From positions 122,399 to 186,398 of the IMG/VR virus record IMGVR_UViG_3300003690_000002: 64,000 nucleotides of DNA. One strand, given 5' to 3'. The translations under genes and the position numbers were made by a program. Below, in pieces: positions 5,384 through 53,386 of this stretch. The DNA comes from a virus. The notes below the pieces were generated by a model, which was not told the origin of the DNA, did not search any database, and was given only the letters and a program-made list of their open reading frames with translations. Every line of letters starts with the position of its first letter. Position 1 is the stretch's first letter.

Positions 5384-5605
5384 TTAACTACATGCGGTGG
5401 GGTGCGACCAGTTTTCGTATTGCCAGTCGGAAATGAGTTCGTCTTTGCAAAGAGAATCGGTCCAGTTATTCCACGCTTCGCTACGGGCTGGAATGTCTTT
5501 GATACCGTCTTGTTCAAACTCTTTTTGAACTTGCGGAAGAATATTCTCGTTGAATTGTTCGACTGCTTCTTTCCAAGTAATTACGCTATAAAGATTGTTT
5601 GCCAT
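5384..5605 (-). CDS. Conserved small phage protein
   Basis: 73 residues starting MANNLYSVITWKEAVEQFN; AAGAAGGGTTAAAATAT precedes the ATG at 5605. Contains PARSEAWNNWTDSLC and ISDWQYENW, a Trp-rich pattern seen in small uncharacterised proteins of many phages. The terminator of the non-coding RNA lies directly upstream, so either read-through or a promoter not seen here must drive it. Confidence 0.65.
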   Translation of the reverse strand: MANNLYSVITWKEAVEQFNENILPQVQKEFEQDGIKDIPARSEAWNNWTDSLCKDELISDWQYENWSHPTACS

Positions 5606-5626: not shown

Positions 5627-5661
5627 AAAAAAAATGTGCGAGGTTCCCAACTTCCTCGCAC
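5627..5661 (-). terminator. Intrinsic terminator of the non-coding RNA
   Basis: Minus-strand stem GTGCGAGG / CCTCGCAC (5654-5661 and 5636-5643) with a 10-nt loop, followed by A and eight T (5627-5634). Good rho-independent terminator. Confidence 0.8.
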
Positions 5662-5795
5662 TAAACACGACCTAAACGCTTACGCAACGACCTGACTAGT
5701 CGCAACCGGCATGCCACCCATTCGCTCCAACAGGACGCGCATTACAAGGTGCCCGGTGATTTAGACTAGCCAATCTCGCTCGTGTCTCCCACGAA

Positions 5796-5827
5796 AAGAA
5801 AATCCGCATGGTCGGCATGAGCCTTTC
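5796..5827 (-). repeat. 32-nt direct repeat, copy 1, within the non-coding RNA
   Basis: Nearly identical to 5851-5882 (differences only in the CCGCAT/CCGCGA part); the last 18 nt GGTCGGCATGAGCCTTTC are identical. In the RNA each copy can form a small GGC-UCAU-GCC hairpin. Confidence 0.7.
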
Positions 5828-5850
5828 GAACAACGACCTTGCGAATTTTT

Positions 5851-5882
5851 AAGAAAACCCGCGAGGTCGGCATGAGCCTTTC
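5851..5882 (-). repeat. 32-nt direct repeat, copy 2, within the non-coding RNA
   Basis: Second copy of the repeat at 5796-5827; 23 nt separate the copies. Its flank can also pair with 5835-5843 (GACCTTGCG with CGCGAGGTC, one mismatch). Confidence 0.7.
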
Positions 5883-6066
5883 ATCCGTAATGGGAGTTGC
5901 ACCCATGCAGCAGGATACCACTCCCGCCGATTCTGCTCTGACTAAATAACGAGGTATCAGCCCGGTTTAGTCCTACGGCATATATTCTGAACATGCCAGT
6001 TTGGTACTCGCGGATTTTCAAAGAGCGAATCAAGAAATCGTTGATTTCTTTCTCCACTGTATATAT

Positions 6067-6463: not shown

Positions 6464-6550
6464 TGGTGCCATCGGAGGGACTCGAACCCTCACATCCATA
6501 CGGATAACGGATTTTAAGTCCGTTGTGTCTGCCAATTCCACCACGATAGC
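6464..6550 (-). tRNA. tRNA-Leu (anticodon UAA)
   Basis: 87-nt tRNA with acceptor stem GCTATCG/CGATGGC, anticodon stem CGGA(C)/TCCG with loop CTTAAAA, a long variable arm of the class II type, T arm GAGGG-TTCGAGT-CCCTC, and an encoded CCA end. Reads UUA (and UUG), codons favoured by this A/T-rich genome. Confidence 0.95.
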
Positions 6551-6559
6551 AAAAAACCT

Positions 6560-6784
6560 CTACCATTCGTCTTCATTCTTTATTACAGAAAATGTATCAA
6601 AGACATCAACGTTTTTCACAGAATCTTTTTCGTGTTGAGTGATTGCCTCGGTAAGTTTTGTGGTAAGTTCGTTGATTACATAAATTCGATTTGGCACAAG
6701 CCTCAAATCGAGGTGCGCACCATTGTCACTGCGCCAACTAAGCACTTCCTCAATGATTTGTCTAATTTTCTTTTGATTAACCAT
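6560..6784 (-). CDS. Small protein with a tag-like N-terminus
   Basis: 74 residues starting MVNQKKIRQIIEEVLSW, which resembles the KLKQIIKEEL tag. Body: HLDLRLVPNRIYVINELTTKL and an acidic C-terminus. The start at 6784 gives an 8-nt overlap with the stop of the VWA gene; an ATG at 6793 is possible. Function unknown. Confidence 0.6.
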   Translation of the reverse strand: MVNQKKIRQIIEEVLSWRSDNGAHLDLRLVPNRIYVINELTTKLTEAITQHEKDSVKNVDVFDTFSVIKNEDEW

Positions 6785-8015
6785 CAATAGCAATAATCCT
6801 TTCGCTAGTTTGGAAATAAGGGCGATGAGCGTAATATTTTGTTGTCATCCACATTCGTTGACATTTAGAAGCTTTAGGCTTTGGAGCCATCAAGTCTGTC
6901 AAAATAATGTGACCATCAAAACCATGCTTGTTCACATATTCGGTAGGAGCATCGAAGCATGTTCCACCATGCATGACACGTTCAGTTTTGTGATTCTGCC
7001 CCTTTTTCCACTCGTAAATAAGCGATTCCTCAACTCGGGTATCGAAAGGAACAACAGTAAACGAAGCGAGTTTAGAAAGCTTGCTCAACTCGCTAAAAAA
7101 CGATGCGAGCATATCATCCCCTACAGAACCACTTTGGTCAATGCTGATTGCAATACGGGCAACACGCTTAACCTTCTTACCAGGATGAATGTAACGATAT
7201 CGTTTATTGATTCGCTTTACTGTGCTAGATTTGTTCGAGCGCGTAGAAGTTTTTACAAAGTATCGAAGTACTTTGCGCCAATCAATATGGGTTTGAATTC
7301 GTTCAAGAATCTCTCTTCGACACGAAGCAGGCACGGTACCCCAATTAGATGCGTTTTGAGCCTCTTGTGCTGCCTTTTTTACAAAGTCCTTAATACGTTC
7401 CTTAGCAATCTCGCCCGTTGTAGAATCGACTTTGCCCCAACCTTCGTGAGAGTCGAACTGTTCACTGGAATCGTTATTGCTACTGCTGCTAGATCCGTTT
7501 TCACCGTCACCACTGTCACCAGATTTATTTTCTTCTCCATCGTTACGTTTTTGTCCTTTGTTCTTCTTTTCGAACTGTTCATCTTTTTTCAAACGCTTAA
7601 GATAAGCTTCTGCGCTTAGACCGACTGGGTATTCCTCAAATCGATCAACACCTGGCACAAGACAACCATCAGGCAATTCGCCAATCAAATGCGAATTAAT
7701 AGCAAGGTCTGTTGCAAAGTTCCAAATTGTATGATTGACTGCATCTGGTTTTCGAGAAGTGACATGTTCAAAAATCAAATGATAAAACTCATGTTTGAGT
7801 ACCCCAAGACGTTGAACATCAGAAAGTTTTTCAAAAAACTCTGGATTGTACAACATTTCAAAATGTGCTGTCTCGGGATTAACTCGTACTCCCGCAGTTG
7901 GAATTGTAGTAGTAGCACGCTTGTTAATACGACGAGACAATGAAGCAAAAAACGGCTCTTGCATAAGCAATCGCGCCGTGTGTATGTTCAAATCGAAATT
8001 ACTAGTTTTACTCAT
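6777..8015 (-). CDS. VWA-like protein with HExxH metallopeptidase-like domain (DUF2201 type)
   Basis: 412 residues. The N-terminal domain has HEFYHLIFEH (75-84), an HExxH zinc motif as in DUF2201 proteins; a low-complexity Ser/Asn/Asp linker follows (about 165-205); the C-terminal domain has the MIDAS-type DQSGSVG near residue 290 and HGGTCFD. Such proteins are usual partners of MoxR-type AAA ATPases, and the next gene upstream (8110-9198) is exactly that. Together they may act as a metal-dependent chaperone or assembly machine, as inferred for MoxR-VWA pairs; the substrate is unknown. Confidence 0.8.
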   Translation of the reverse strand: MSKTSNFDLNIHTARLLMQEPFFASLSRRINKRATTTIPTAGVRVNPETAHFEMLYNPEFFEKLSDVQRLGVLKHEFYHLIFEHVTSRKPDAVNHTIWNFATDLAINSHLIGELPDGCLVPGVDRFEEYPVGLSAEAYLKRLKKDEQFEKKNKGQKRNDGEENKSGDSGDGENGSSSSSNNDSSEQFDSHEGWGKVDSTTGEIAKERIKDFVKKAAQEAQNASNWGTVPASCRREILERIQTHIDWRKVLRYFVKTSTRSNKSSTVKRINKRYRYIHPGKKVKRVARIAISIDQSGSVGDDMLASFFSELSKLSKLASFTVVPFDTRVEESLIYEWKKGQNHKTERVMHGGTCFDAPTEYVNKHGFDGHIILTDLMAPKPKASKCQRMWMTTKYYAHRPYFQTSERIIAIDG

Positions 8016-8109: not shown

Positions 8110-9198
8110 TTATTCCTCGTCTTCAGAGGAATTTCCGGTTAGAATTTGAACTAGGTAGTCAGATACTCGAATTCCATCCGTTGCTTTTGCTTGGTGGAGT
8201 GAAGTGGTATTCTCAAGATCCCCAGCACCCAAAACCGTCCACAGTTTCATAGCAACTTCAGAAGGAAGTGTTACAAAATAATTTGATAGATTTTGAATTT
8301 GCTCATCAGACAATTTTTCTTTAAAAATTTCTTTGGCTTCCATTTTTTCAACTAACGCACTATGCGCATTGATATCAAAATCAGATGTTTTTTCAAGCTT
8401 TCCTTCGTCAATGACTTCTTCAACAGTAACTTGATGCTCATAATTAGCGACAAAATCGTTAAATGCCACTGCTGCTTCAAAACCGACATAAGCAGTTGAA
8501 AGATTGAAAAGCGTGGACGAAGCTTCAGCTAGCAAATCAGCCCTTGCAAGACAGTCATTGAGCCGTTTCCAAGAACGTCGCGAAGGATATACTTTGTTTG
8601 GCTCATAATCGCCATCGTGCTCCAAATGATTACGATTTTGATTAATGAAATCCCAAATCAAAGAATCAACATTTTCTTTACCCCAAGACAACCAATCTTC
8701 AATTGATGGCTCAACATCAAATACAACATAGCGGTCAAGTTCCGCAGGGTCCATTTCGTTAACTTGATATTGATCACCATGCTCGCCGCCATTAATGGCA
8801 GCAAAAAGGATCGTATCAGGATGAAGATAGTGACCATTCAATTTGCGAGAATCAGTAAGTTCAAAGATACCTTGTCGAACTTCTGTTGTTGCTCGGTCGA
8901 CTTCGTCTAGAAAAAGAACAACCGGTTCCGTACATGCTGTTACAAACCAATCCGGGGGATTAAATGCAGTAGCTTGCGTACCATTAATATCAACGCCTTC
9001 AGGGCGAGGTAGACCAACTAGATCACCTTCTGTCATTTGACTGGCACGGCGTTCGACAACAGGGATTTGTGCCTCGTTGGCGAATTGATATACAACCTCA
9101 GATTTACCAACCCCGTGACGACCGCGAATCATTACTGGTTTACGATCATCAACAACAAAGGAGACACACTCAAGAAACGTTTTGAAATCAATTGCCAT
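8110..9198 (-). CDS. MoxR-type AAA+ ATPase
   Basis: 362 residues. Walker A GRHGVGKS (26-33), Walker B LFLDEVDR (95-102), then NGGEHGDQYQVNEMDPAELDR, the sensor and arginine-finger region of MoxR ATPases. These ATPases remodel or load partner proteins, commonly VWA proteins; the neighbouring 6777-8015 product fits. The C-terminal 150 residues are helical and acidic. Own promoter at 9234-9262 and own terminator at 8070-8100, so the two genes are expressed as separate units. Confidence 0.85.
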   Translation of the reverse strand: MAIDFKTFLECVSFVVDDRKPVMIRGRHGVGKSEVVYQFANEAQIPVVERRASQMTEGDLVGLPRPEGVDINGTQATAFNPPDWFVTACTEPVVLFLDEVDRATTEVRQGIFELTDSRKLNGHYLHPDTILFAAINGGEHGDQYQVNEMDPAELDRYVVFDVEPSIEDWLSWGKENVDSLIWDFINQNRNHLEHDGDYEPNKVYPSRRSWKRLNDCLARADLLAEASSTLFNLSTAYVGFEAAVAFNDFVANYEHQVTVEEVIDEGKLEKTSDFDINAHSALVEKMEAKEIFKEKLSDEQIQNLSNYFVTLPSEVAMKLWTVLGAGDLENTTSLHQAKATDGIRVSDYLVQILTGNSSEDEE

Positions 9199-13386: not shown

Positions 13387-13860
13387 GCCTTTCGTAATAA
13401 AGACTGACCATGTTGGGTAAGTATTTGCCGCGCCAGAAGAAAAGAAATCATCCAGCTTGCATTCGCGCAGCGCACCATTCTTCAAATTAAGAAAGATAAA
13501 CTTGAATTTATCTTTTAATGTCTCCGCATTATGTTTCTCTGAGCCTGTCAAAGTGAATCCTAATCCAGACCAGTTCTCCTTGACAAGCGACTTCCTTTTC
13601 CTACCAGCAGTTTTCAGTTCAAAAAGTGTAATGTTTTCAACTGCTTCTACCAATTGGTCTGGATTGTTAATTGTCTCTGCGTCAGATTCTTTAATCAAAT
13701 CAAAGCCTTTCACTCGTATTTCTTTTCCTACTTGCGCGTAGGCTTCGACAAGATTCTTTCTTTGTTGTGGGGTGGGACGAACAAAACCATGTTGGCGCAT
13801 TGTTGACCATGAGTCTCTCTCGCTCTGTTTTCCCATGTTGTAGCTTTTAGCGTTGTTCAT
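13375..13860 (-). CDS. Hypothetical protein, possible nuclease-like fold
   Basis: 161 residues from the ATG at 13860 with an AAAGGAATAGC site. Contains GKQSERDSWSTMRQHGF, then LFELKTAGRKRKS and FTLTGSEKHNAETLKDKFKFIFLN. The segment ELKTA after an acidic strand is reminiscent of (D/E)xK nuclease cores, but no full motif is certain. Function unknown. Confidence 0.6.
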   Translation of the reverse strand: MNNAKSYNMGKQSERDSWSTMRQHGFVRPTPQQRKNLVEAYAQVGKEIRVKGFDLIKESDAETINNPDQLVEAVENITLFELKTAGRKRKSLVKENWSGLGFTLTGSEKHNAETLKDKFKFIFLNLKNGALRECKLDDFFSSGAANTYPTWSVFITKGLTD

Positions 13861-28855: not shown

Positions 28856-30424
28856 TTAAATTTCGACAATTGCATGATCTGTTGTGATTAATATAGAAAT
28901 AGTTGAAGCCGCATTTTGAAGAGCACATCTTACAACTTTTGCCGGATCGACAATTCCAGCATTAAGCATGTTAACAGCCTTTCCTGTTGAGAAATCCCAT
29001 CCGTTCTCCGGGCGCATACGAAGCACTTTGGCTAATATTAAATCTGGAGAGTCACCAGCGTTACGAGCCATTTGTCGTATTGGTTCTTTGACAGCTTCCA
29101 GCACGATATTAACTCCTAGTTGTTGATCATCATTATTTGTTTTAATTTTCAAACCCTTGGAAGCTCTTAAAATGGCAACACCACCTCCGGCGACAATTCC
29201 CTCTTCTTGGGCGGATTTCACAGCCCCTAAAGCATCTTCAATTCTATGCTTTTTCTCTATCATTTCAATTTCTGTTGCTGCACCGACGCGAATAATTGCA
29301 ATCCCACTAGCTAATCTTGTAATTCTTTCTTGAATTCTTTCACACTCATATAGTGACTCTGTTTGCTCCAACTCGTTTTTCAATAATTCAATTTGTTTTT
29401 CAACCCCTTCAAGATCACCCTTTCCGTCAACAATCGTAGTGGTATTTTTTAATATTTCAATTTTTTTAGCAACACCTAGATGCTGTAACTCTACATCTTT
29501 TAATTTAAGTTCCGATTCTATTGTTACGTATGTTGCCCCAACTGACACTGCCAAATCTTTAAGAATGTTTCTCCGCTCTCTTCCATAATAAGGAGCTTTT
29601 ATAGCCGCAACTTTTAAAGTACCACGCACCGCATTCATAATTAATGCGGCTAGTGCTTGACCTTCAATGTCTTCTGCTACGATAACAAAAGGTCTTCCCT
29701 CCCTTGAAATAATCTCTAATAATGGCATTATCTCATCAATAGATTCGATTTTTCCATCAGTAATAAGAAATAGCGGATTTTCATATATAACTGCATTACG
29801 TTTTTCATCATTGATAAATGCACCGGCTAAATATCCTGAATTGAGCCTAAATCCTTCAACTACGTCTAGGCTTGTTTCGGCGGAACGAGCCTCTTCTATC
29901 GTAATCGCCCCATCTTTTCCTGCCAAGTCAATCGCTTTTGCAATTAGTTTTCCAATTGTTTTATCTCCGTTTGCAGAAATTGTAGCTATATGCTCAATAT
30001 CTTCTTTCGAGGCAATTGGTATCGCTTGTTTTTTTAATTCTTCAACAATCGTAATCACAGCTTTATCAATACCTCTTTTAATATCAATAGGTGGAACTCC
30101 TGCTGCCAAATATTTTTGCGCTTCTTGTAATATTGCTCTTGATAAAACAGTTGATGTGGTTGTTCCATCTCCAGCATCCATATTTGTTTGAGTTGCAGCT
30201 TGTTTAACTATTTGTGCACCAACATTCTCAAATGGGTCTTCTAATTCAATAAATTTTGCCACTGTAACTCCATCTTTTGTTATCACTGGATTGCTATTTT
30301 TTAAATGTAATATTACATTTCTTCCTTTTGGTCCTAAAGTTGAAGCCACATTGTCTGCTAAAAGATTAACACCAGTAAATATTTTTTGTTGTAGTGTTTT
30401 TTTAGATTCGAATTTTTTTGCCAA
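28856..30424 (-). CDS. groEL: Chaperonin GroEL
   Basis: 522 residues, TTG start (30422-30424) after AGAGGTG. Clear group I chaperonin: VASTLGPKGRNVIL, ITKDGVTVAKFIELEDP, AGDGTTTSTVLSRAIL (ATP site), GGGVAIL near the C-terminus. The usual Gly-Gly-Met tail is absent; it ends TTDHAIVEI. Forms a ring for folding proteins; phages use it for capsid proteins. No standard groES lies beside it, but a GroES-like gene is at 45206-45487. A TG-T-TATAAT extended -10 lies at 30444-30449 without a clear -35. Confidence 0.95.
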   Translation of the reverse strand: MAKKFESKKTLQQKIFTGVNLLADNVASTLGPKGRNVILHLKNSNPVITKDGVTVAKFIELEDPFENVGAQIVKQAATQTNMDAGDGTTTSTVLSRAILQEAQKYLAAGVPPIDIKRGIDKAVITIVEELKKQAIPIASKEDIEHIATISANGDKTIGKLIAKAIDLAGKDGAITIEEARSAETSLDVVEGFRLNSGYLAGAFINDEKRNAVIYENPLFLITDGKIESIDEIMPLLEIISREGRPFVIVAEDIEGQALAALIMNAVRGTLKVAAIKAPYYGRERRNILKDLAVSVGATYVTIESELKLKDVELQHLGVAKKIEILKNTTTIVDGKGDLEGVEKQIELLKNELEQTESLYECERIQERITRLASGIAIIRVGAATEIEMIEKKHRIEDALGAVKSAQEEGIVAGGGVAILRASKGLKIKTNNDDQQLGVNIVLEAVKEPIRQMARNAGDSPDLILAKVLRMRPENGWDFSTGKAVNMLNAGIVDPAKVVRCALQNAASTISILITTDHAIVEI

Positions 30425-35666: not shown

Positions 35667-35995
35667 AAATCTGGATGCTCCTTTTCTAAAATATCAAAAA
35701 TATTTTCAATATCGTTTTTATTTATACCAAATTGATCAATGATTTTCTTTTCTTCTTGCTGTGCTTTTATTATTTTTTTTCTTTTGATTTTTGATATCTG
35801 TTTTTTCTCTTTAAGTTCTTCAATAAATGCTAAAACATATTTATTTTTATTAATATATCCCGCCACCATTTCATTAAAAAAATCACAAACCTTAATTTCA
35901 TCATAATTCAAACGAATTTTTAGCTCAGCATGAAGTTTATCTGTGCTTTGAAAGCATATCTTTTTAGCTGTATTTCCGTATTTAGTTTCTATCAT
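35663..35995 (-). CDS. Conserved phage protein, possible ribbon-helix-helix
   Basis: 110 residues from the ATG at 35995 that overlaps the previous stop by ATGA. LHAELKIRLNYDEIKVCDFF then NEMVAGYINKNKYVLAFIEE followed by a very basic coiled tail (KKQISKIKRKKIIKAQQEE). A strand then two helices is RHH-like; DNA binding is inferred. Confidence 0.55.
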   Translation of the reverse strand: MIETKYGNTAKKICFQSTDKLHAELKIRLNYDEIKVCDFFNEMVAGYINKNKYVLAFIEELKEKKQISKIKRKKIIKAQQEEKKIIDQFGINKNDIENIFDILEKEHPDL

Positions 35996-37029
35996 TCGCT
36001 TTTTCTCAAAATATGAGTCCAACCCTCTGCGTTCCCTGCTGGAGTTTGATAAATAAATTCTGATTTATTTTGTAATTCTTTAATATTTCTTGCACCTGTG
36101 TAAGACAGTCCCGACTTTATGCCATTATTTAAATCTGCTAGTATGTATTTTACACCGCCTCTATATGGAACAGTTGCAGAGATACCTTCATTAGAGGAAT
36201 ATTCCCCTCTCCATTCAAATTGCGCCTCTTTGCTAGCCATTCCTCTATAAACTTTTCTTTTTATATTTGATGCTCTCGTGATTACGTCTCCTGGGGATTC
36301 GTCAGTACCGGCTAGCATTGATCCAAGCATTACAAAACTGGCTCCAGCAGCCAATGCTTTAACGGCGTCTCCGCTACTTCTAATCCCTCCATCCGCGATA
36401 ATCGGTATATTATGGTGCGTTTCAGAACAATCAAGTATTGTTTGTAGACCAGGTACTCCGTGTCCTGTTTGAATTCTTGTTGAGCAAATAGACCCGCCGC
36501 CGATATTGCAGCGCACACTATCTGCGCCCCATTTCACAAGATCATTAAACCCCTCTAAGGTGGCTATATTTCCTGCCATTATATGAATCTCGTTTTTAAT
36601 TGTATCTTTAATTGTTTTTAAGGCTCTCTCCATTAAAATATGATGACCATGTGCAATGTCTATACATAAAATATCTACCCCTCTCGTCGCTAGTGCAATT
36701 GCACGTTCCAAATAATCTCCTGTTACACCGATGGCAGCACCAATATGTTCTCCGTCTTCTAATGTTTCATATGCTTCTTCGACAATTTTAGTTTGTTGTT
36801 TAATATTATTATATCGATGTACTAATCCAAGACCACCTTGTTTCGCCATAGCAATTAACATATCTTTTCCAGTAACAGTATCCATAGGAGAGGATATGAT
36901 AGGAATTGATAAACTAATTTTATCATCTAGTTGGCTCTCTAGCGTTATCTTTGAGCGACTTTCTATATCGCTGTATTGAGGTACCAAAAGAACATCATCG
37001 TATGCTAATGTTTTAATTGCTGATATCAT
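35992..37029 (-). CDS. IMP dehydrogenase / GMP reductase family protein
   Basis: 345 residues, TIM barrel without the CBS pair of cellular IMPDH. Motifs: LTYDD-like [54 protein letters not shown] (Cys loop), [10 protein letters not shown] and GMASKEAQ. It would oxidise IMP to XMP or reduce GMP to IMP; the sequence alone cannot decide. Supports purine supply together with guanylate kinase, NrdJ and dUTPase. Confidence 0.85.
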
Positions 37030-51508: not shown

Positions 51509-53386
51509 CTAATCAACAACTTCTGCGTCTACGACATTATCTTCATTTTCTTCACTATCAAGAGGTTGCTCTTTCGATGTTTCATTTAAGATATCTTTAT
51601 ATAACATTTCTGCTAATTTGTGTGAAATAGCTGTTAATTTACTTTGAGCGTCTTTAATTGCCTCTAAATCATCGCTCTTCAGCGTTGCTTTTGCAAAAGC
51701 TACAGTGGATGTAAGCTCCTCTTTTTCGTTATCTGATAGTTTCGATTCAACGTTGATAAGAGCTTTTTCTGTTTGATAAATTAATGTGTCAAGCTGGTTT
51801 TGCTCTTGAATTAATTCTTTTTTAGCTCTATCTTCTGCTTCATTCTCTTTTGCATCATTAACCATTTGATCAATTTCGTTTTCAGAAAGACCACTAGAGT
51901 TTGTAATCCGAATAGATTGTTCTTTTCCAGAAGCCATATCTTTTGCAGATACCTTTAATATACCATCTGCATCGATATCAAAACTAACCTCGATCTGTGG
52001 AACTCCTCTTGGTGCTGGCGGAACGCCCTCTAAATGAAACTTACCAAGGGATCTATTATGCACAGCCATGTCCCGCTCTCCTTGTAAGGCGTGAATTTCC
52101 ACTGATGTCTGATTATCAACTGCAGTAGAAAAAATCTCAAACTTGCGACAAGGAATTGTAGTATTGCGTTCAATCAATACAGTTCGGACGCCGCCCAGCG
52201 TTTCAATTCCAAGAGTTAAAGGGATTACATCTAGCAATAAAATATCTTTTACATCGCCAGACAATACCCCTCCTTGGATTGCGGCGCCTAAAGCCACAAC
52301 CTCATCAGGGTTCACGCCACGATGAGGCTCTTTGCCGAAAAACTTCTTAACAGTATTGGCAACTAGAGGAATTCTCGTAGATCCACCAACTAATACTATT
52401 TCATCAATATCTGCCACTTTCTTTTTTGCATCTTTTAATGCTGCACGGCAAGATTTAAATGTTTTTTCAACAATCTTTTTTATCAATTGTTCAAATTTTG
52501 CTCGCGAAAACTGTATATCCATATGCTTTGGTCCAGCTGCATCTGCTGTTAAAAATGGCAGATTAATACTTGTTTGCATCGTGGAGCTTAATTCAATTTT
52601 TGCTTTCTCAGCAGCTTCGCGAAATCTTTGAAGAACCATTTTGTCTTCTGAAACATCTATTCCAGAATCTTTTTTGAATTCAGAGATAAAATAGTCAATA
52701 ATTTCTTCATCTATGTTATCTCCGCCTAGCTGAGTATCGCCGTTTGTGGCTACAACTTCAACCACATTATCTCCAACTTCTAGAATAGATATATCAAAAG
52801 TACCGCCACCGAAGTCATAGACAGCGATTAATTGGTCTTCTTTCTTGTCCAATCCATAAGCTAAGGCAGCTGCAGTCGGTTCATTAATAATCCTTTTTAC
52901 ATCTAACCCAGCAATCTTTCCAGCGTCTTTTGTCGCTTGACGTTGAGTATCGTTAAAGTATGCAGGAACTGTAATTACTGCAGATGTTACTTCTTCACCA
53001 AGATAATTTTCTGCTGCGCGTTTGAGTTTTTGCAAAATACGGGCACTAATTTCTGGTGGTGAGTATGACTTGTTTCCAACATCAAATTTTACGCTGCCAT
53101 TGTTTGCTTTTGATACTTTGTATGGCATGCGCATTATTTCTTCTTTTACGCTGTTAAAGTTTTGCCCTATGAATCTTTTTGCAGAAAAAATAGTATTTTT
53201 GGTATTTGTTACCGACTGCCTTCTTGCGATTTGACCCACAAGAGCAGCTTCATCTTCGTTGAACGCAACAACCGATGGTGTAGTTCGTGCCCCCTCTTCG
53301 TTATTAATAACTTTTGGTGCGCCAGCTTCTAATACAGCAACCACCGAATTGGTTGTGCCAAGATCAATGCCAATGATTTTTCCCAT
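51509..53386 (-). CDS. dnaK: Chaperone DnaK (Hsp70)
   Basis: 625 residues. ATPase domain [55 protein letters not shown]; substrate domain [19 protein letters not shown] and [21 protein letters not shown]; acidic C-terminus [10 protein letters not shown] much like bacterial DnaK. ATP-driven folding; needs host DnaJ and GrpE, not found in the window. Own promoter at 53408-53436. Confidence 0.95.

Follow-up and report, generated by a model that had tools for sequence, protein, structure and literature searches.

Two structured RNAs apparently joined in tandem in a large uncultured phage, one of them from a candidate new RNA family with exchangeable arms

Phage T4 carries two stable RNAs other than tRNAs, RNAs C and D, inside its tRNA cluster; their function is unknown. 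GOLLD, a structured RNA encoded by phages and often found near tRNA islands, has a conserved 3' region and a variable 5' region, is of unknown function, and binds ribosomes in pull-downs (PMC12286853). ROOL, an RNA of phages and prophages that lies near tRNA islands, likewise has no known function (PMC12286853). Here we describe an RNA gene of about 430 nt on the minus strand of a 64-kb stretch (the window, to which all positions refer) of the 186,398-base IMG/VR virus record IMGVR_UViG_3300003690_000002. Comparison with relatives indicates that the locus is two structured RNAs joined end to end, domain A on the 5' side and domain B on the 3' side, and not one fold.

The occurrence of B with A or with other 5' blocks mirrors the layout of GOLLD, with its conserved 3' and variable 5' regions. 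However, many GOLLD RNAs exceed 800 nt, as opposed to about 430 nt here and about 90 to 190 nt for B alone, and the RNA is also much shorter than ROOL. B shares the habit of both, being borne by phages and often located near tRNA genes. The covariance models of GOLLD and ROOL matched neither the window nor several B loci, sensitive scans included. By this comparison, the likeness is one of habit, not of homology. With RNAs C and D of T4, as these are generally described, the likeness lies in the tRNA-cluster setting.

Gene boundaries and tandem architecture

The gene lies between a promoter at 6095-6067 and an intrinsic terminator at 5661-5627, both on the minus strand. The promoter has the sequence TTGACA-N17-GATAAT with a TG before the second hexamer, and sister promoters in the same genome are detectable by BLAST. 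Seven near-identical promoters of this form, all on the minus strand, are found between 1719 and 10887 of the window; this set probably represents the early promoters of the phage. The terminator is formed by P4, the 3' hairpin of domain B (GUGCGAGG-AAGUUGGGAA-CCUCGCAC), followed by an A and eight U residues. In the B family, the stem of P4 covaries and its loop is conserved. An automated scan missed this terminator because its 10-nt loop exceeds the limit of the scan.

An earlier, sequence-only reading of the window had placed a structured noncoding RNA of no known class here, with its own promoter and terminator. Both elements were located where they had been expected, the RNA being on the minus strand. 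The minimum free energy of the 441-nt stretch was -160.8 kcal/mol as opposed to -137.3 ± 6.1 kcal/mol for shuffled sequences (z, -3.9). A scan of the window with Rfam 15, as that reading had suggested, yielded no family at its gathering score for the RNA locus, and a sensitive scan (E up to 10) gave chance-level matches only. The models for tRNA, transfer-messenger RNA (tmRNA), group I introns, RNase P RNA, and riboswitches did not match the RNA locus; the Rfam matches in the window were three ordinary tRNAs. A tRNA-Leu(UAA) gene (6464-6550) lies on the same strand, about 370 nt upstream of the RNA promoter.

The sequence-only reading had also joined a cloverleaf and a distal stem domain into a single fold. 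Relatives of the locus, which we located via the neighboring protein with a vWA domain, do not bear this out. One of them (L009) contains only the first 210 nt, i.e., domain A, with its own promoter and a boxB/boxA-like leader. Two others (L012 and L025) contain only the 3' part, domain B, which measures about 105 nt there and stands behind promoters of its own. The cloverleaf portion thus corresponds to domain A, which occurs alone in L009, and the distal stem to a separate, widespread family that appears to be transcribed alone elsewhere. At the A-B junction of the window, B has no promoter of its own. The junction (5796-5882, minus strand) contains a 32-nt direct repeat, identical at 29 of 32 positions, whose copies at 5882-5851 and 5827-5796 are separated by a linker; it duplicates the 3' end of domain A. 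The first copy (5882-5851) could instead fold on itself as a local hairpin, GACCUCGCGGGUUUU/AAAAAUUCGCAAGGUC.

Domain B and its genomic settings

Domain B spans positions 5635-5792 on the minus strand. It starts with a 5' GUGGG, which is followed by the first strand of P1 (5787-5780, pairing with 5670-5663), the P2 arm (5779-5687), the core UGCGUAAGCG (5686-5677), an optional P3, an AGG, the second strand of P1, and P4 (5661-5636) with the conserved loop AAGNUGGGAA. The exact pattern GAAAGGCTCATGCCGACC returned chance matches only. A gapped pattern assembled from the conserved parts brought in about 20 further phages, and a second search used a shorter core pattern filtered with the covariance model. 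The family comprises 45 covariance-model matches in 40 distinct rows.

Compensatory changes in homologues, which had been proposed as a check on the original prediction of structure, are present in both domains. In a 23-sequence alignment of B in which the variable arm was shortened, 95.3% of the cells were paired, two-sided changes occurred in 21 of 25 pairs, and P1 was 100% paired. None of 500 shuffles reached these values, and sliding the partners by 1 to 3 columns left pairing at only 35 to 43%. The 40-row alignment, which was fitted to the model and hence is biased towards it, had two-sided changes in 23 of 25 pairs and 96.2% of the cells paired, with no shuffle as high. Among 15 members outside model building, P1 formed in 119 of 120 cells, the maximum with shuffled partners being 114 of 120. 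The P4 loop, which was left free in the second scan, varies in three members (L219, L225, and L227).

The copy in the window, which was among the model-building sequences, scored 50.8 bits (E, 9.7e-9). Here the model took an alternative 5' strand, the arm insert being long; the true 5' strand forms all eight pairs of P1, and P2a, the core, and P4 are kept as well. That B is a conserved RNA is practically certain. The family appears to be new, having no entry in Rfam 15 and not having been met in the literature, which was searched nonexhaustively.

The size of B varies from about 90 to 190 nt around a constant core of roughly 90 to 100 nt. Module M1 of the P2 arm (AUCACCGGGCA...UGGCAUGCCGGUUGCG; 5701-5760, minus strand) recurs in L136, L147, L183, L200, and L232. 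M2, a UNCG-capped hairpin, is present in most members (e.g., L124, L126, L129, L135, L140, L143, L201, L203, and L227). M3, a repeated GCAUUGUUGUCAAG-like stretch, is found in L121, L134, L148, L219, and L220, and L204 and L225 share another P2-arm module. Some members have no P3, and in others it is short or reaches about 50 nt (L200 and L227). Exchange of modules is a known mode of evolution of the periphery of large structured RNAs.

B occurs in about 40 other large uncultured phages as a single copy per record. Its presence is patchy: 3 of the 14 relatives of at least 150 kb that were found via the vWA protein carry it (G037, G053, and G075), and it is also found in other records of up to 293 kb. 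Two true members (L147 and L148) come from metagenome-assembled genome contigs in a genome-contig collection; few of the proteins of these contigs were tested, with almost no family match, and the contigs are likely viral in origin. Four other genome contigs (L144-L146 and L149), judged by eye, do not have the B fold. B is absent from two cultured phages of Vibrio that encode a distant homologue of the vWA protein, and no match was obtained when two B members were compared with annotated phage genomes by blastn.

The genes neighboring B vary between members, and tRNA genes lie beside it in L127/L156, L135, L143, L193, L201, and L203. In L135 and L143, B is flanked by a tRNA on either side, a few nucleotides away; it directly follows tRNA-Arg(UCU) in L127/L156 and is followed 3 to 4 nt downstream by tRNA-Lys in L201 and L203. 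The ends of B beside tRNAs could be produced by tRNA processing. A separate terminator is found downstream of P4 in L125 and L128.

Two further observations concern the sequences just upstream of B. In L123, the tRNA at this position is interrupted by a group I intron (L123:12982-13172; RF00028; 62.6 bits); its halves match tRNA-Arg(UCU) of relatives, and a second, partial group I intron starts at 13592. In L201 (2050-2237) and L208 (2236-2419), another conserved structured block directly precedes B, as A does in the window. The closing helix of this block, GGUGGGGAU/AUCCCCACC, has two compensatory pairs between the two sequences, and the block is possibly a third phage RNA.

Domain A, its leader, and the surrounding genome

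Domain A extends from about 6058 to 5851 on the minus strand. It begins with a boxB-like hairpin (6024-6058; outer helix AGUGGA/UUCGCU, inner helix AAGAAAUC/GAUUUCUU), which has the same plan with different letters in L009. The core (5851-6025) is a multibranch structure closed by P1 (6018-6007 with 5865-5854), and its arms are P2 (5997-5977), P3 (5972-5940), P4, P5, and P6, the last running up to P1. P4 of this domain (5927-5910) is D-loop-like with a GUGGUA loop and adjoins the T-loop-like arm P5 (5906-5890; AUGGG-UGCAACU-CCCAU), which covaries with L009.

The 175-nt cores of the window and L009 are distinguished by 14 substitutions, 12 of which are in base pairs. Three pairs are changed on both sides (C-G to U-A, G-C to A-U, and A-U to G-C), several gain or lose G-U status, and one is broken. 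One of these changes, from C-G to U-A, supports the hairpin GCGGGA/UCCUGC, which sits within the multibranch loop closed by AAAAUCCGCGAG/CUCGCGGRUUUU. Of the elements in the sequence-only reading, the 5' hairpin and the T-loop-like arm were retained, whereas the exact four-way cloverleaf is not favored, since the substitutions back the hairpin in one large multibranch loop. The GAUACC and GGUAUC segments, which had been proposed to form a loop-loop contact, are identical in the two sequences and hence uninformative.

Domain A is very probably a structured RNA. Its covariance model matched only this record and that of L009, with no further copy among 82 records. A search with a D-loop/T-loop pattern returned only L009 and two chance-like stretches that the model does not recognize. 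Two candidate identities were dropped: a cobalamin riboswitch, whose P4 arm resembles the GGUGCAAcUCC segment, had no Rfam match, and a link to Y RNA and Ro60 found no TROVE protein in the record.

The hairpin is followed by a boxA-like element, CGCUCUUUGA (6018-6027, minus strand; UGCUCUUUAACAA in Escherichia coli rrnB). In both copies of A, the hairpin and then the boxA-like element come right after the start site, as in the antitermination leader of rRNA operons. L132 has the same order as boxB-boxA-boxC of E. coli rrnB, namely, a hairpin, a boxA-like element, and the GUGGGG of B. Unlike in those operons, no rRNA lies downstream, and a clear boxA is found in only 4 of 38 B members. Within 60 nt upstream of B, the element was present in 4 of 23 members versus 0.02 expected. 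From this likeness, we infer that the leader may protect the untranslated transcript from Rho.

The record encodes a PolIII-like DNA polymerase, RecA, the large subunit of ribonucleotide reductase, GroEL, and DnaK; these replication and chaperone genes, together with its size, identify a large phage. In the window, GroEL maps to 28856-30424 and DnaK (HSP70; E, 4.6e-251) to 51509-53386. The vWA/metallopeptidase-like protein (6777-8015; phrog_1314) adjoins an ATPase (8110-9198; phrog_1297) and is conserved in the phage group, since 297 IMG/VR stretches encode a relative. A protein resembling IMP dehydrogenase and GMP reductase is encoded at 35992-37029 (E, 1.3e-107).

Possible roles of the RNA

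The locus is probably an untranslated phage RNA gene in which two independently occurring RNAs stand behind one strong host-type promoter, its product being stable, acting in trans, and having a conserved partner that may belong to translation or tRNA handling. Action in trans is the likelier part of this proposal: the constant core, the varying neighbors, the single copy, and the context of an own promoter or of tRNA processing fit a stable trans-acting RNA better than a leader of the following gene. With its hairpin and boxA, the leader of A would allow the Nus factors of the host to protect the transcript, which is not translated, against Rho. In B, the constant parts (5' GUGGG, UGCGUAAGCG, and the P4 loop AAGNUGGGAA) would touch a conserved partner, for which translation or tRNA handling is the most likely setting, whereas arms P2 and P3 would form an exchangeable periphery. 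Domain A would be one of several clade-specific 5' additions. The link to translation is a tentative first guess, made because of the tRNA habit of B and the comparison with the ribosome-binding GOLLD.

Several points weigh against this proposal. Domain A is supported by two sequences only. The boxA-like motif was defined after it had been seen, and it was found in none of 15 further B members, the one other hit (L235) being a duplicate of L122; it is therefore not a family property of B. The search patterns themselves account for part of the invariance of UGCGUAAGCG. For B, no binding partner or complementarity was found, its core and P4-loop segments having no match on either strand of the rRNA of E. 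coli, the one species compared.

Alternatively, the RNA could serve as a decoy or in counter-defense: expressed along with the phage tRNAs, B (or P4/P5 of A, which resemble a tRNA elbow) would occupy nucleases or sensors of the host that attack phage or tRNA. The tRNA-array habit of B and the T-loop- and D-loop-like hairpins of A would fit such a role, as would the patchy presence and exchangeable arms, which are expected in an arms race. Nevertheless, the very constant core of B argues for one fixed partner, and B does not have a tRNA-like fold; we regard a decoy as rather unlikely.

Somewhat less credible is a cis-acting 5' leader (a riboswitch, put-like antiterminator, or attenuator), with A and B controlling the next gene through opening or forming of the P4 terminator. 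The RNA does lie after a promoter and ahead of a gene that begins at 5602 and runs downwards, P4 is the terminator in the window, and the boxA-like leader is present. Against this, the downstream genes vary among members, several of which have a tRNA within a few nucleotides, L125 and L128 have a separate terminator after P4, and the P4 loop is conserved while its stem changes.

The fusion could also be a decayed remnant of two RNA genes, broken at the duplicated junction. The 32-nt duplication and the loss of the promoter of B point in this direction, but B keeps the eight pairs of P1, P2a, the core, and P4, A keeps its pairs, and the promoter and terminator are intact, making a relic improbable. 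Finally, a short gene in domain A (a 58-codon frame, GTG GAG AAA ... GGA TGA, about 6057-5881) is very improbable: both homologues keep the frame open, and 7 of their 12 differences fall at third codon positions, but a 2-nt length difference breaks its 5' end, so that the homologous GTG of L009 yields VEMEV and then a stop, no common start codon with a ribosome-binding site can be seen, and the base-paired and compensatory substitutions of the core speak for RNA structure.

The trans-acting RNA gene thus remains the reading that we prefer. More speculatively, B might represent a widespread class of stable phage RNAs whose core is fixed and whose arms can be swapped. Produced alongside the phage tRNAs, such an RNA would help to reprogram or protect translation in the host, as a small RNA machine of large phages that has no described counterpart. 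Few RNAs with no known function are as elaborate as GOLLD and ROOL, the structured phage RNAs found beside tRNA arrays. B is short, covaries strongly, is by its sequence independently transcribed, and comes with natural arm variants, and it is far easier to probe, to mutate, and to use as bait. B thus makes testable why large phages carry such RNAs beside their tRNAs.
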